The notes under the pieces were generated by a model. That model searched no databases. It was not told the DNA's origin and saw only the letters and a list, made by a program, of their open reading frames with translations. Below are positions 18,621 through 23,413 of a stretch of DNA of 39,097 bases, one piece after another. Position numbers and translations under genes: made by a program. Source of the DNA: Holophagaceae bacterium (GTDB lineage: Bacteria; Acidobacteriota; Holophagae; Holophagales; Holophagaceae); the NCBI GenBank assembly GCA_003165415.1, contig PLUC01000094.1, forward strand, positions 1 to 39,097, read 5' to 3'. Every line of letters begins with the position of its first letter. Position 1 is the first letter of the stretch.

Positions 18621-18708
18621 CCGTCAAGATTAGCGCGTCCACGGGGATCCCGTGGCTGTTAGGGTGTTTTCTATGGTCCCCAGTGAACCCGGAACAAGGT
18701 ATGAGTCC

Positions 18709-19500
18709 ATGCCCGAACGCCTGGCTTGCAGTCTGGGAGCGAAGGTGCGCCATGCCTTCGCCCTGCTGGGGTCGGTCTCCTGGCTGCTGGGCCAGTGCGC
18801 CCAGAGCGGCCTCCGGCTGAGCCGGGAGCAGCTGCGGGTGGTGTGGGAGATCACCCGGACCCAGATCCGCTTCACCGCCCTGGACGCCCTGCCGCTTTGT
18901 GTCCTCACCGCCCTGCTCCTGGGCGGCATCACCCTGCTGCAGGTGTTCGGCCAGCTCTCGGCCTTCGGCGCGGAGCGGCACATCAGCCAGATCCTGGCGC
19001 AGCTGGTGATCCGGGAGTTGGGCCCGCTCATGGTGGGGATCCTGGTCATCAGCCGCAGCGGCACCGCCATGGCCACGGAGATGGCCAGCCGCAAGCTCAG
19101 CGGGGAGCTGGACGCGCTCTACGTGAACGGGGTGGACCCGATCCAGTACCTGCTGGTACCGCGCCTCCTGGGCGGCGTCATCTCGGTGTTCGCCCTGGTG
19201 ATCGTGTTCGACACGGTGGCCCTTCTGGGCGGGTTCCTGGTGGCCTGGCTGCGCCTGCCTATTTCCTTCACCTTCTTCCTGGGCGCCCTGGGCGAGGCCA
19301 TCGGCCGCCAGGAGCTCACCGCAACCTTTTTAAAGTGCCTGGTGTTCGGCACCACCATCCCCCTGGTCTGCACCTCCTTCGGGCTCCGGGTCAAGCGCAG
19401 CACCACCGAGATCCCCCAGGCGGTCACCAAGGCCTCGGTGGTGTCCCTGGCGGTCCTGCTCCTTTCCGGAGCCATCCTTTCGGTGCTGATCTATGCCTGA
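18709..19500 (+). CDS. mlaE: MlaE-type ABC transporter permease
   Basis: About 263 residues of the MlaE permease family (DUF140). Hydrophobic helices alternate with family stretches: TRTQIRFTALDALPLCVLTA, LLGGITLLQVFGQLSAFG, QLVIRELGPLMVGILVISRS, GTAMATEMASRKLSGELDAL, and the C-terminal TTEIPQAVTKASVVSLAVLL. With the ATPase and MCE genes that follow it forms a retrograde or anterograde phospholipid transport system of the inner membrane. The start is uncertain: ATG 18709 gives the shortest well-supported protein; ATG 18673 and GTG 18652 are in frame upstream. It overlaps the ATPase gene by 8 bases. Confidence 0.9.
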   Translation: MPERLACSLGAKVRHAFALLGSVSWLLGQCAQSGLRLSREQLRVVWEITRTQIRFTALDALPLCVLTALLLGGITLLQVFGQLSAFGAERHISQILAQLVIRELGPLMVGILVISRSGTAMATEMASRKLSGELDALYVNGVDPIQYLLVPRLLGGVISVFALVIVFDTVALLGGFLVAWLRLPISFTFFLGALGEAIGRQELTATFLKCLVFGTTIPLVCTSFGLRVKRSTTEIPQAVTKASVVSLAVLLLSGAILSVLIYA

Positions 19501-20164
19501 GCCGCTCCTGGCTCTGGAAGCCGTGACCCTGCTCGCTCCAGAGGGCCGGACCGTGTTCCACCGCCTGGACTGGAAGCTGGCCCGGGGCGCGCGCTTCCAC
19601 GCCAAGGGCGGCGCCGGCGGCGGCTGCACGGCGCTGCTCCGCCTGTGCGCCGGCATCGCCGAGCCGGACGGCGGCCGGGTGGTCCTGGACGGGGTGCCCC
19701 TGAAGGCGGGCGTCCCGCACCCGTTCCTGCAGCGGGGCCTCCTGGGCTGGGTGCCTTCGGACGGCGGGCTGGCGGTGAACCTCAGCCTGCTGCAGAACGT
19801 GGCCCTGCCCCTCCGGTTCGCCCAGAACCATGGCCGGGCGGCGGCGGAGCGGACCGCCCTGGACTGGCTGGAGCAGGCCGGCCTGGGCTGCCAGGCGCAC
19901 CAGCGCCCCGCCGTGCCCGGGAACCGGGAGAGCTGGGTGGCTTCCCTGGTCCGGGCCGCGGCCAAGGGCTCCAGGCTCTGGCTGGTGGACCGGCCCGCGG
20001 GGGGCCTGGACGCGGACTGCATCCAGGCGGCGGAGCGGATCCTGGGCCAGGCCGCGCAGGATCCGGACGTCACCATCCTGCTGGTGGGCGGAGCCTGGAT
20101 GTCCAGCCTGGGGCTGGAGCTGACCATCGGCAACGGGCGGGTGTTCTCCGGGAGGGAGCCATGA
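19493..20164 (+). CDS. MlaF-like ABC ATPase with degenerate catalytic motifs
   Basis: A 223-residue protein in the place of MlaF and still recognisable as an ABC ATPase (LALEAVTLLAPEGRTVFHRL, LCAGIAEPDGGRVVLDGVPL, LLQNVALPLRF, DRPAGGLDADC). Every catalytic motif departs from the norm. Walker A is GGAGGGCT, with Cys45 where the invariant Lys belongs. The Q-loop region reads GWVPSDGGL. The signature (LSGGx) is replaced by VPGNRESW. In Walker B, Asp166 is kept but the catalytic Glu is Arg167. The H-loop His is missing (LLVGGAWM). The gene is intact and translationally overlapped on both sides, so it seems maintained as a structural subunit rather than a decayed gene. It should not hydrolyse ATP alone. 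Confidence 0.85.
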   Translation: MPEPLLALEAVTLLAPEGRTVFHRLDWKLARGARFHAKGGAGGGCTALLRLCAGIAEPDGGRVVLDGVPLKAGVPHPFLQRGLLGWVPSDGGLAVNLSLLQNVALPLRFAQNHGRAAAERTALDWLEQAGLGCQAHQRPAVPGNRESWVASLVRAAAKGSRLWLVDRPAGGLDADCIQAAERILGQAAQDPDVTILLVGGAWMSSLGLELTIGNGRVFSGREP

Positions 20165-21138
20165 GGCTGGAAAAGGACGACGCAAAGATCGGGCTGCTGG
20201 TATTCCTGACCCTGGCGCTGTTCGTGGGTTTCATCTTCCAGCGCAGCCTGAGGACCATCTTCAGGAAGGAGACCCATGTCTTTGTCCGCCTGGAAAGCGC
20301 GGCGGACGTGGCCGAGGGCACCGAGGTCCAGCTCCAGGGCCTGCGGGTGGGCCAGGTGGAGAAGGTGCGGCTGCAGCGGGACCGGGTCCAGTACCACTTC
20401 CTGGCTGACATGGGCCTGCGCACCGACATCGTCCTGTGGGAAGGCACCAAGGTCCTGGTGGTGGCCAAGCCGCTGGGCGGCTCCTTCCTGGACCTGCAGC
20501 TGCCGCCGCCGGCGGAGCGCCGGGAGGCCCTGGCGCCGGAGACCATCCTGGCGGGCGCCTCCGGCCCATCCCTGGCCACCCTGGTGGCGGACATCGACGC
20601 GCTGGTGGAGAACATCAACCGCGGCGTGGACGAGCTGCGCGGGCAGCTCCAGGCCAGGGGCGTGGGCGTGCTGCTGGAACACCCCCAGGTGCGCACGGTG
20701 CTGCTGAACCTGAACCAGACCCTGCAGAGTTTCCAGCAGCTTGCCGAGGAGGGCGGCGGCCTGGCGCGGCAGGGCGGAGGGTCCGTGAAGAACCTGGACC
20801 GGGCCCTGGCCAGCATGCAGCAGGTCATCGACCAGATCCATGCTCTGCTCAGCGACCGCCAGGGCGACCTGGACGCCATCGTGGTCCACCTGGCGGGCAC
20901 CCTGAAGGAAATGGAGAGCCTCGGCAAGGAACTGCGCGTCGTCATCCAGGACAGAGGCCCGGAAGCCGGCGAGAGCCTCAAGTCCCTGGACCGCACCCTG
21001 CGCTCCGCCGAGGAGATGCTGGAACTGCTCAAGGTCAAGCCGAACCGGGTGGTCTGGGGCAAGCCCACCCAGGCCGAGCGCGACGAAGCGGCGAAGAAGG
21101 TCGAGGAGGCCCGCAAGGCGCAGGGGGCGAAGCCGTAG
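20161..21138 (+). CDS. mlaD: MlaD-like MCE domain protein
   Basis: A 325-residue membrane-anchored substrate-binding protein. A helix at about residues 11-27 (IGLLVFLTLALFVGFIF) is followed by the MCE domain (VFVRLESAADVAEGTEVQLQ, GLRVGQVEKVRLQRDRVQ), and from about residue 130 by a long helical region rich in Leu, Gln and Asp (LVENINRGVDELRGQLQ, NLNQTLQSFQQLAEEGGG, LVHLAGTLKEMESLGKELR-like), ending in a charged, Lys- and Ala-rich tail. MCE proteins form hexameric rings that pass phospholipids across the periplasm. The ATG overlaps the TGA of the ATPase gene (ATGA). No MlaC or MlaB gene follows. Confidence 0.92.
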   Translation: MRLEKDDAKIGLLVFLTLALFVGFIFQRSLRTIFRKETHVFVRLESAADVAEGTEVQLQGLRVGQVEKVRLQRDRVQYHFLADMGLRTDIVLWEGTKVLVVAKPLGGSFLDLQLPPPAERREALAPETILAGASGPSLATLVADIDALVENINRGVDELRGQLQARGVGVLLEHPQVRTVLLNLNQTLQSFQQLAEEGGGLARQGGGSVKNLDRALASMQQVIDQIHALLSDRQGDLDAIVVHLAGTLKEMESLGKELRVVIQDRGPEAGESLKSLDRTLRSAEEMLELLKVKPNRVVWGKPTQAERDEAAKKVEEARKAQGAKP

Positions 21139-21217
21139 GTTGCCGGCAGAAGACCTGGAGCGTGTTTTAGAAAATAATGGGTGATATAAAACAATTTATT
21201 CTTTTCTCTCCGCGATC

Positions 21218-21257
21218 CTCAGCGAGATCTCCGTCTCCTCCGCGTTAAATTTCTTTT
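21218..21257 (+). repeat. Inverted repeat element, copy 1
   Basis: A 40-base unit beginning CTCAGCGAGATCTC, followed by a CGTCTCCTC stretch, GCGTTAAA and a T-rich end (TTTCTTTT). The reverse complement of 21305-21344 matches it at roughly 32 of 40 positions by eye. TCTCCGCGATC just before it extends the element to about 21206. The pattern of ctc-agcg and ctc-cgcg blocks ending in a taaa/T-run resembles intergenic repeats seen in several bacterial genomes, but I cannot name a family. Confidence 0.6.
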
Positions 21258-21304
21258 GCTGGTGTGGGTTCGGCGCAAGACTCCATGCGCCGCCACATCT
21301 GGAC

Positions 21305-21344
21305 GAAAAAAATAAATCGCTGAGGGGGCAGAGATCTCGCTGAG
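21305..21344 (-). repeat. Inverted repeat element, copy 2
   Basis: Read on the minus strand it begins CTCAGCGAGATCTC like copy 1, then CTGCCCCCTCAGCG and an A/T-rich end (TTTATTTTTTTC). Copies 1 and 2 face each other across about 47 bases, so their transcript could fold into a long hairpin with the GAGATCTC cores paired. Confidence 0.6.
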
Positions 21345-21365
21345 AGGAGACGCATGCGTCTCCTC
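21344..21365. repeat. Perfect 22-base palindrome
   Basis: Eleven bases (GAGGAGACGCA) are followed at once by their exact reverse complement (TGCGTCTCCTC). It abuts copy 2 of the repeat and reuses its GTCTCCTC word, as if part of the element had been duplicated in inverted form. It may form a hairpin or cruciform, or be a binding site. Confidence 0.7.
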
Positions 21366-21544
21366 GGAGAAAAAGTAAAGATAGGGGTAGGTCCGCTCGT
21401 CTGCTTAGATATCGAAACCGCTCGCAGAGATATAATTCAGATCATTTCCATGATTTTGTTTGCAAGATCTTGCAATGAGATATAGCATGAGTCGTTGCCG
21501 TTAATAACAACTTTTATAAACCTTATTTTTTGGAGACTTTATTT

Positions 21545-23413
21545 ATGAAATATTGCCATTTCCTTTCCAGAACGGTCTTCCCCTTGGGCCTGTCCACGCT
21601 CCTCCTGGCCGGCGAGTCCGTCCTTTCCCCCCCCTCCAGCCAGGCCTACCCGCCCTACATCCCCGTTTCCACCCAGAACTTCACCCCGGCCGAACTCCTG
21701 GTCCAGCAGGCCAACTGGATCCGCAACCAGGTCTGGACCGCGGGGGACGTGGCCGACGCCTCCGCCTATCTGTTCCCCAAAAGCTACGACGTGGATTCCG
21801 GCTACGGCATGCTGGGCACCGACTACTTCAGCTGGATGCTGGCGAACAACGAAGCCTACTGCCGCTATGACCTCGCCCACGACGACCACAAGCTGGATGT
21901 GCCCCTGGACCAGAGCGACGACGCCGCCATCGAGCGGGTGATGATGGGCTGTGGCGCCAACAGCTATGACATGGCCTGCTGGGCCATCGCCATGTCCGCC
22001 GCCACCCGCAACCCCCAGTTCTCCAAGGACCAGACCAACGATTACAACAATGCCTTGATCGCCTACCATCACTTCCTGCTCACGTCCTTCTATCCCGGGG
22101 GATTCCAGACCTACCGGGTCGGTGGAACCAGTCCCTGGCTGTACGGGGAATCCGGCCAGGACCCGGCCTCGGGCGGCGACCCCCGCAACGCATACTACTG
22201 GGCCTATCCCGCCCCGAAGTGGCAGAACCCGGACCCGCACTGGGATCCCCTGGCTCCGTCAGGGGCGGTGATGGCCTGGCCGGGCTGGGACGCGGTCACC
22301 GGGGAGGAAGCCTGGTTCGCCCTGCTGGCGCCCATGCAGGTGGCCTTCAACCAGAACCAGGGCCGGCCCGGGTGGGCGGCGGTCCAGGCCCCCATCGACG
22401 CGGTGGCGCTGGTGGGGAATGCCTGCCGCGCCCTGGGCGCGGTTTCTCTGATGCAGAACTCGGCCACGGGCGCCATCTACCGCAATGTGCGGCCTCCGGA
22501 CCAGACGGACCAGGGCAAGCGCTACCAGGTCTCGGTGGAGAACAACTGGTCCATGTACACCGGGCTGGGCATGCTCAAGGCGGCCCTGGCGGATCTGCGG
22601 GCCGCTCAACCCAACTACCGCCAGACCCTGGACTTCGACCTGGACCAGTCGGCCCGGGACCTGGACCGGATCCAGGGCGGCATGATCCGCTTCTTCAAGA
22701 ACAAGGCGCTGGTCTGGCATGCCCCGGGCGACCCGTTCGGCGATCCCAGGGCGATCCCCTACGGGTTCTTCCTGCAGGGCACCAGCGGCAGGGCCGGGGC
22801 CGCCCAGGGCAATACCGCCGCCTTCGCCACCGACGTGCAGACCTGGGGCATCGCCGCCATCCTGGCGGACCGCGGGCTGGAGCAGGCCCTGGAGCAGGCC
22901 TACGGCCCCTTTTTCCTGGACCAGATGTTCAGGGCCGCCATCGAGGTGGGCGGCTACTACCGCCCGGACGCCGCCGGCCTCCCGCTGCTGGCGGGCATCG
23001 GCTTCAGCGCCCAGACCTTCGGCGATCCCGCCAGCCAGATGTCGGGGGAATGGACCTGGGGCGCCATCAACGCCGCCATCCTCCTGGCCGACTTCCACCG
23101 GGAGCCCAGCCACGCCGACCCGGAGATGGTCGAGGCGCTGCTGGCCCAGGCCCGGGACATGATCGCCGGAGTGAATGCCTGCTGCTCACAGTGCTACAAC
23201 CCCCAGCGCCTGCCCGGGGGCCGGGACTGGGCCGGCTACCTGTACGCCAACGCCAGGCAGTGGATCCCCTGGGGCTGGTGGTCCAACGCCTGCCCCTCCC
23301 AGGCCGCCACCACCTGGGCGTTCCGGGTCAACGCCGGCTTCGACAGCTTCGAGCTGGGCGGCGGCGACCACCAGGCTACGGTCAAGGCCCTGGGGCTGGC
23401 TGGGGGGCTTTGA
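21545..23413 (+). CDS. Large secreted protein of unknown function, possibly alpha-helical toroid enzyme
   Basis: A 622-residue protein that I do not recognise. It starts with a signal peptide (residues 1 to about 35: FPLGLSTLLLAGESVLSPPS) and is otherwise soluble. It is rich in Trp, Tyr and Asn, with repeated helix-like segments such as NNWSMYTGLGMLKAALADLR, TDVQTWGIAAILADRGLEQA and EWTWGAINAAILLADFHREP, a spacing reminiscent of (alpha/alpha)6 barrels of glycosidases and lyases. Conserved-looking acidic positions include YDVDSGYGMLGTDYFSW and the run DDHKLDVPLDQSDDAAIERV. A Cys cluster (NACCSQCYN) near the C-terminus suggests disulfides. ATG 21545 with GGAG 9 bases before it is preferred to an in-frame TTG at 21530. 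Its end overlaps the convergent DUF2911 gene by 32 bases. Enzyme function is only a guess. Confidence 0.85.
   Translation: MKYCHFLSRTVFPLGLSTLLLAGESVLSPPSSQAYPPYIPVSTQNFTPAELLVQQANWIRNQVWTAGDVADASAYLFPKSYDVDSGYGMLGTDYFSWMLANNEAYCRYDLAHDDHKLDVPLDQSDDAAIERVMMGCGANSYDMACWAIAMSAATRNPQFSKDQTNDYNNALIAYHHFLLTSFYPGGFQTYRVGGTSPWLYGESGQDPASGGDPRNAYYWAYPAPKWQNPDPHWDPLAPSGAVMAWPGWDAVTGEEAWFALLAPMQVAFNQNQGRPGWAAVQAPIDAVALVGNACRALGAVSLMQNSATGAIYRNVRPPDQTDQGKRYQVSVENNWSMYTGLGMLKAALADLRAAQPNYRQTLDFDLDQSARDLDRIQGGMIRFFKNKALVWHAPGDPFGDPRAIPYGFFLQGTSGRAGAAQGNTAAFATDVQTWGIAAILADRGLEQALEQAYGPFFLDQMFRAAIEVGGYYRPDAAGLPLLAGIGFSAQTFGDPASQMSGEWTWGAINAAILLADFHREPSHADPEMVEALLAQARDMIAGVNACCSQCYNPQRLPGGRDWAGYLYANARQWIPWGWWSNACPSQAATTWAFRVNAGFDSFELGGGDHQATVKALGLAGGL

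Follow-up and report, generated by a model that had tools for sequence, protein, structure and literature searches.

The window considered here, a stretch of 39,097 nucleotides from a Holophagaceae bacterium (assembly GCA_003165415.1, contig PLUC01000094.1), carries on its forward strand an operon for a lipid transporter of the Mla type, in which an MlaE-type permease gene and an MCE (MlaD) gene flank a gene for an MlaF-like cytoplasmic subunit. This middle gene (19493..20164) is an uninterrupted open reading frame (ORF) of 223 aa. It starts with ATG and overlaps both of its neighbours, by 8 nt with the permease gene, whose stop ends at 19500, and by 4 nt with the MCE gene, whose ATG lies at 20161. 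The product matches the ATP-binding cassette (ABC) domain of Pfam (ABC_tran, PF00005) with 33.4 bits against a cut-off of 25, and lies below the NCBIfam MlaF equivalog cut-off (NF008809; 39.7 bits vs 441).

In the alignment, the residues of the ATP site have largely been replaced. Walker A (residues 39-46, GGAGGGCT; 19607..19630) carries Cys45 instead of the Lys, and in Walker B (residues 162-167, LWLVDR; 19976..19993) Arg167 replaces the Glu next to the retained Asp166. Where an LSGGM/Q signature is expected, V141 to S147 read VPGNRES (19913..19933). A Ser (residue 89 by count) occupies the Q-loop column, and the H-switch His is absent. A previous sequence-only reading had described the gene as intact, overlapping on both sides and bearing just these substitutions, all of which the alignment bears out. 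Its statement that every catalytic motif is lost holds for the Walker A Lys, the Walker B Glu, the signature, the Q-loop Gln and the H-switch His; it is slightly too strong, because Asp166 of Walker B and the D-loop (GLD) are still in place. Judged by its sequence, the ORF is thus an intact ABC-type ATPase homologue devoid of catalytic motifs, the Walker B Asp and the D-loop apart.

The same degeneration is found in relatives. A search of 41 genomes gave five orthologues from the same genus (G001-G005; 52-63% identity), all degenerate at the motifs, with substitutions that are partly different, and none with canonical motifs at this locus. Three of these genomes (G001, G002 and G004) are in one contig, and the G005 orthologue breaks off after residue 182, where its contig ends. 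Other members of the family (42-47% identity) are likewise degenerate, and among 77 family genomes degenerate-type, or "dead", matches occur in several Holophagaceae genera, with no internal stop in the dead-type matches listed. In Geothrix (for example L098, L100 and L102) Walker A is mostly retained, and the Q-loop Gln, signature and His are gone. Sequencing error, which the earlier reading had named as a way in which its proposal might fail, is unlikely, because all five same-genus orthologues are degenerate with partly different substitutions; separate genomes of the genus and of the family agree. The permease of this second type is found in 44 of 61 family genomes and is not clear in the other 17, some of them incomplete (match table judged by eye). 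The window's own assembly has 273 contigs, 94.2% completeness and 7.4% contamination, and claims of absence across that genome are therefore weak.

The degenerate subunits extend well beyond the family. A profile scan of genome contigs with the ATPase alignment gave 75 loci, including MlaE-linked degenerate ATPases in Gemmatimonadetes, Nitrospirae and Sandaracinus. Phylum sweeps were then queried with the permease rather than with the ATPase, which allowed canonical ATPases next to this type of permease to be detected. They covered 199 genomes of the window's phylum, Acidobacteriota (match threshold 1e-30), and five more phyla: those of Bacterium HR33 (G271, locus L131; 101 genomes including the Gemmatimonadetes genome G279, locus L148), Sandaracinus (G272, L107; 140 genomes) and a Nitrospirae genome (G273, L105; 100 genomes), all at 1e-50, and those of a Rhodospirillales genome (G615, L136; 299 genomes, 1e-48) and a Planctomycetota genome (G617, L123; 199 genomes, 1e-52). 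The swept phyla, named after the titles of genome records, are a limited set, with Bacteroidota, Cyanobacteriota, Spirochaetota and most others outside it. The 278 MlaE matches listed reduce to 221 with distinct MlaE sequences, 213 with an adjacent ATPase and 8 without an adjacent ATPase match. Among the 213, 121 ATPases are degenerate, 90 are canonical and two form a special Sandaracinus pair kept outside the two classes; these counts are not prevalences, because the sweeps were thresholded, the matches listed are a lower bound and the loci examined are a part of them.

The two classes differ in their motif counts. The SGG signature ([M/Q] following) is found in 0 of 121 degenerate and 90 of 90 canonical proteins, Walker B DE in 9 vs 90, the H-switch His in 3 vs 90, and the Q-loop Gln in 11 vs 89. 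Walker A GK[S/T] is kept by 65 of the 121, compared to 89 of the 90. The Walker B Asp is present in 86 degenerate proteins, and 59 have Asp at the Glu column. The canonical-class misses all trace to locus L074 (G053), where a canonical-type MlaF is broken into two ORFs, possibly by a frameshift or an assembly error. Dead-type proteins are also shorter (median 222 aa vs 263), with a median of 25 residues after the H column vs 63, and so lack the C-terminal extension (handshake). The 20 Planctomycetota loci examined comprise 12 with a degenerate ATPase, 6 with a canonical one and 2 that gave no ABC match, under a loose His scoring in which some chance TH or SH counts as His. Thirty Pseudomonadota loci gave 26 canonical proteins (10 by script, 16 after judging His by eye in SHA, SHS or THA), one without a match (L349) and two unassigned (L342, L352). 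The remaining one, L330 (G618), has lost only the Q-loop Gln and the signature, retaining Walker A, DE and His, and its permease falls on the dead side. Members of the dead side come from Acidobacteriota, Gemmatimonadota, Nitrospirota, Myxococcota and Planctomycetota, together with this one partly degenerate Pseudomonadota protein, and none in the sample is fully canonical. The sequence-only reading had remarked that a lone dead MlaF-type subunit would be unusual; the window protein is not alone, being one member of a multi-phylum clade, and the idea of a lone oddity is rejected by the 121 degenerate ATPases and by the permease tree.

In the special pair (L218/L226; G272:C16:13557-15082), two MlaE-type permeases lie in tandem and each is accompanied by a separate ATPase. 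One of these ATPases has SGGQ and lacks the H-switch His (ISSD); the other retains the His and has a broken signature (LGDGM). The motifs give this pair, which stands outside the dead clade, the look of a heterodimeric MlaFE in which one site is degenerate.

The permease, which is free of ATPase motifs, reproduces the class split. An MlaE tree of 119 rows (representatives of the 221 at 80% identity) separates dead-paired from canonical-paired permeases by one change with a support of 100. A careful tree of 66 chosen rows, leaving out the L218 pair, L191 and all unselected representatives, gives 100/100 for 36 canonical permeases, with L330 among the others. In a tree of 138 rows, which includes the Planctomycetota loci and L330 and omits the L218 pair, all 69 dead-paired permeases fall on one side and all 61 canonical-paired ones on the opposite side, again with one change and a support of 100 by the Shimodaira-Hasegawa-like approximate likelihood ratio test (SH-aLRT). 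Three of the eight rows without a detected ATPase fall with the dead side. Two loci of the Nitrospirota sweep (L294, L296) have a canonical-side MlaE without an adjacent ATPase match, followed by a similar gene of ~145 aa. The ATPases themselves, compared without their motif columns and together with 16 other ABC proteins, give one dead group (79, not strong) and one canonical group (98). Since the tree is unrooted and some branches are long, a single loss is the simplest reading of the dead subunits' origin, not a proven one.

Although catalytic residues have gone, other parts of the subunit are held. Column conservation, computed on 56 dead and 55 canonical representatives, is lower in the dead class over all positions (0.343 vs 0.488) and at the P-loop (0.286 vs 0.673), signature (0.342 vs 0.704) and H-switch (0.227 vs 0.516). 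It is retained at residues 89-109 (0.516 vs 0.555), a stretch after the Q-loop (SDGGLAVNLSLLQNVALPLRF; 19757..19819) which we take to lie where the nucleotide-binding domains (NBDs) of ABC proteins receive the coupling helix. N102, R154, P106 and N96 are kept in 53 to 56 of the 56 dead representatives. In the Mla system, the coupling helix of MlaE is reported to mediate the contact with MlaF (PMC7790496). This helix is conserved in both permease classes, with a class-specific swap: one column is E (55), Q (4) or D (2) in all 61 canonical-paired rows, whereas 60 of the 69 dead-paired ones have G (45) or R (15) and the others D (3), S (2), Q (2) or E (2). The window permease has Gly151 at this column (SGELDAL... 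segment; 19099..19140).

The ratio of nonsynonymous to synonymous substitution rates (dN/dS) was computed on 11 Holophagaceae species pairs, with species shared between pairs, out of 210 from 21 genomes, at an identity limit of 0.70. By the NG86 method the dead subunit has values of 0.11-0.45 (median 0.33). Canonical MlaF (0.00-0.29) and the dead-type permease both have a median of 0.09, and the canonical permease has one of 0.08. The YN00 median for the dead subunit is 0.15 (8 of the 11 pairs computed). The dead subunit is under purifying selection, relaxed relative to its partners. A ratio near 1, which the earlier reading had held to count against it, is not what is seen. With neither stops nor frameshifts, the window gene does not behave as a pseudogene.

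The partners of the subunit match their families in Pfam. The permease gene (18652..19500) matches PF02405 (185.6 bits, E 1.2e-54), and in the permease tree it belongs to the side with dead ATPases. The MCE/MlaD gene (20161..21138; 325 aa), in the same operon, matches PF02470 at residues 38-113 (32.7 bits, E 8.8e-8); both scores are over the cut-off. The MCE protein has an N-terminal hydrophobic stretch (by eye), a single MCE domain and a long C-terminal part, and TIGR00996 matches it over residues 14-290 (E 8e-12), under the family cut-off. Neither MlaB nor a second NBD gene is seen in the window operon. Across the clade, overlapping or close gene order is retained, and in 51 of 56 dead representatives the next ORF after the ATPase is MCE-like, a tally in which N-termini were judged by eye and the automatic ORF choice took the wrong frame for L002 and L105. 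No fourth conserved gene common across phyla came out of Pfam searches with 10 flanking ORFs, which were drawn from the window and five loci. Upstream of the triads at two Nitrospirota loci (L105 and L146) lies a gene for a di-haem cytochrome c peroxidase, and downstream a tetratricopeptide repeat (TPR) gene. In the window, the triad is followed by a 627-aa ORF (21530-23413) without a Pfam match at 0.01, and the gap ahead of this ORF falls in the bin 20001-22000, where the GC content is lower (0.628).

Taken together, these data make it fairly probable that the window operon belongs to an old, paralogous lineage of MCE lipid transporters (MlaE-MlaF-MlaD) whose MlaF subunit became a pseudo-ATPase. 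The loss may have proceeded in two steps, an order proposed here rather than reconstructed. In the first, the signature and the H-switch would have been lost widely, and usually the catalytic Glu as well (often changed to Asp), leaving a site that may bind ATP and not turn it over. Such a site would resemble the degenerate one of heterodimeric ABC exporters, except that both halves would be affected. GK[S/T] in 65 and Asp for Glu in 59 of the 121 proteins suggest such a state. In the second step, only some lineages, among them the window's genus, would have lost Walker A. The dead subunit would still dock on the MlaE coupling helix and act as a fixed scaffold or lid holding the MlaE dimer, and lipids may travel down their gradient, or under some drive other than ATP, between inner membrane and MCE tunnel. 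Both the passivity and the direction of transport are inferred. The sequence-only reading had offered as one option a system working without ATP hydrolysis by this subunit, which the intact ORF, the degenerate orthologues and the dN/dS below 1 support as far as sequence allows. The more specific proposal, that throughout the clade two pseudo-ATPases form the structural base of an MlaE dimer that passively brings the lipids in the inner membrane and in a long MCE tunnel into equilibrium, is somewhat doubtful. Such a non-ATP-driven clade would either predate the split of several phyla or have spread among them. In published work, E. coli MlaF with K47A, with E170Q or with its C-terminal extension deleted does not complement (PMC7367683), and lipid transfer from MlaD to MlaC is reported to be spontaneous without ATP and to be prevented by ATP hydrolysis (PMC10212509).

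Several points weigh against a dead paralogous line. The dead "clade" is one side of a branch in an unrooted tree, some branches are long, and sampling leaned towards query-like permeases. The window partners miss NCBIfam cut-offs (TIGR00056, the MlaE family permease, 162.7 vs 212.2 bits; TIGR04430, MlaD, 30.5 vs 135). The dN/dS of the dead subunit is ~3.6 times that of its own permease, which fits slow decay too. Weak ATPase activity could also persist in some members, as 9 of the 121 keep DE, 11 the Gln and 65 Walker A.

The rival that survives best, although unlikely, is that the subunit is an ATP-binding regulator, which would bind ATP without hydrolysis and gate the permease by nucleotide level. 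The same retention of GK[S/T] and of Asp at the Glu column, along with the Walker B Asp in 86 of 121, speaks for it. It is unlikely for the window protein and for the 56 proteins lacking GK[S/T], and the P-loop is conserved below the protein average (0.286 vs 0.343).

Quite unlikely is a heterodimer, also considered in the earlier reading, in which a canonical MlaF, or some other ABC subunit whose gene lies elsewhere, would join the dead subunit and supply an active half. At least two MlaE are present in 53 of the 54 dead-bearing genomes searched (G276 has one), where the other ATPases were not all examined, and the window's genome has a canonical MlaE-MlaF pair (at C165). There is also the precedent of MceG, the mycobacterial ATPase encoded apart and common to several Mce systems. 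A strong canonical MlaF profile match (E 1e-45) is present in all 12 genomes searched. However, in each of 10 Holophagaceae genomes one MlaF match exceeds 420 bits and adjoins another MlaE by coordinates; G004 has a second, of 370 bits, adjoining a third MlaE. The remaining Holophagaceae matches reach at most 222 bits. No spare MlaF stood out among the strong matches in the 12 genomes, the matches of at most 222 bits not being individually identified. An orphan MlaF is an unlikely partner, since all the standout matches in these genomes adjoin an MlaE; an NBD of another kind may still serve as one. Moreover, in a head-to-tail ABC dimer a subunit lacking Walker A/B and the signature would leave both composite sites incomplete, and most of the C-terminal part is gone. 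Rescue by a partner is unlikely because the MlaF matches adjoin other MlaE and both the Walker A/B halves and the signature are lost.

It is improbable that the gene family is decaying and on its way out. The dN/dS above that of the partner permease and of canonical MlaF, the variation of the motifs between species and the 17 of 61 family genomes without a clear second-type MlaE would fit, but the dead-type matches listed have no internal stop, dN/dS stays at or below 0.45, four residues are near-invariant and gene order is kept. Hydrolysis through unusual residues is very improbable: L240, L369, L380 and L330 keep the Lys with Gln or DE, but the window protein retains only the Walker B Asp, and none of the most conserved dead-type columns offers a replacement at the lost positions, except P88 beside the Q column.

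If the proposal of a passive clade is true, its transporters would run in cells that keep an ATP-driven MlaFE as well, with one system pumping and the other leaking or supplying lipid to the outer membrane. The transport direction of Mla-type machines and the role of ATP in each direction are disputed (PMC10212509). A clade that keeps the permease, the tunnel and the ATPase shape is a natural test of MlaE-MCE function: since catalysis is dropped and the rest is kept, its remaining activity would be what the machine can do without ATP hydrolysis. The clade suggests that an ABC transporter NBD can be retained for non-catalytic reasons in both halves and across phyla. It also calls for caution in annotation, as PF00005 matches adjoining MlaE are not always ATPases. 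No publication on a dead MlaF clade was found by title and opening lines of the abstract, in a search that left out most subscription papers and all of bioRxiv.

Degenerate sites are known from heterodimeric ABC proteins such as TM287/288, PatAB and CFTR. The window system shares with them the loss of the catalytic Glu and of other site residues; theirs keep one composite site active, whereas here both site halves are lost and the operon has no second NBD. With E. coli MlaFEDB it shares an MlaE family permease, an MCE protein and an ABC-type cytoplasmic subunit, and differs in having neither the catalytic residues nor the C-terminal handshake, nor an MlaB seen in the operon. PqiAB/LetAB, as described (PMC12436622), likewise combine an MCE conduit with a membrane protein without an ATPase domain; they have no ABC subunit, whereas the window system keeps an MlaE-type permease and an ABC-shaped subunit. 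The closest known architecture is the minimal MlaEFD of Veillonella parvula, with one gene each for E, F and D, an F/D overlap, a long MlaD and neither MlaA nor MlaC (PMC10665443). That paper notes uncertainty in MlaF annotation, and in a word search of its text Walker occurs only as the name of an author (PMC10665443). Compared with this system, the window type is set apart by an F subunit that is both degenerate and short.
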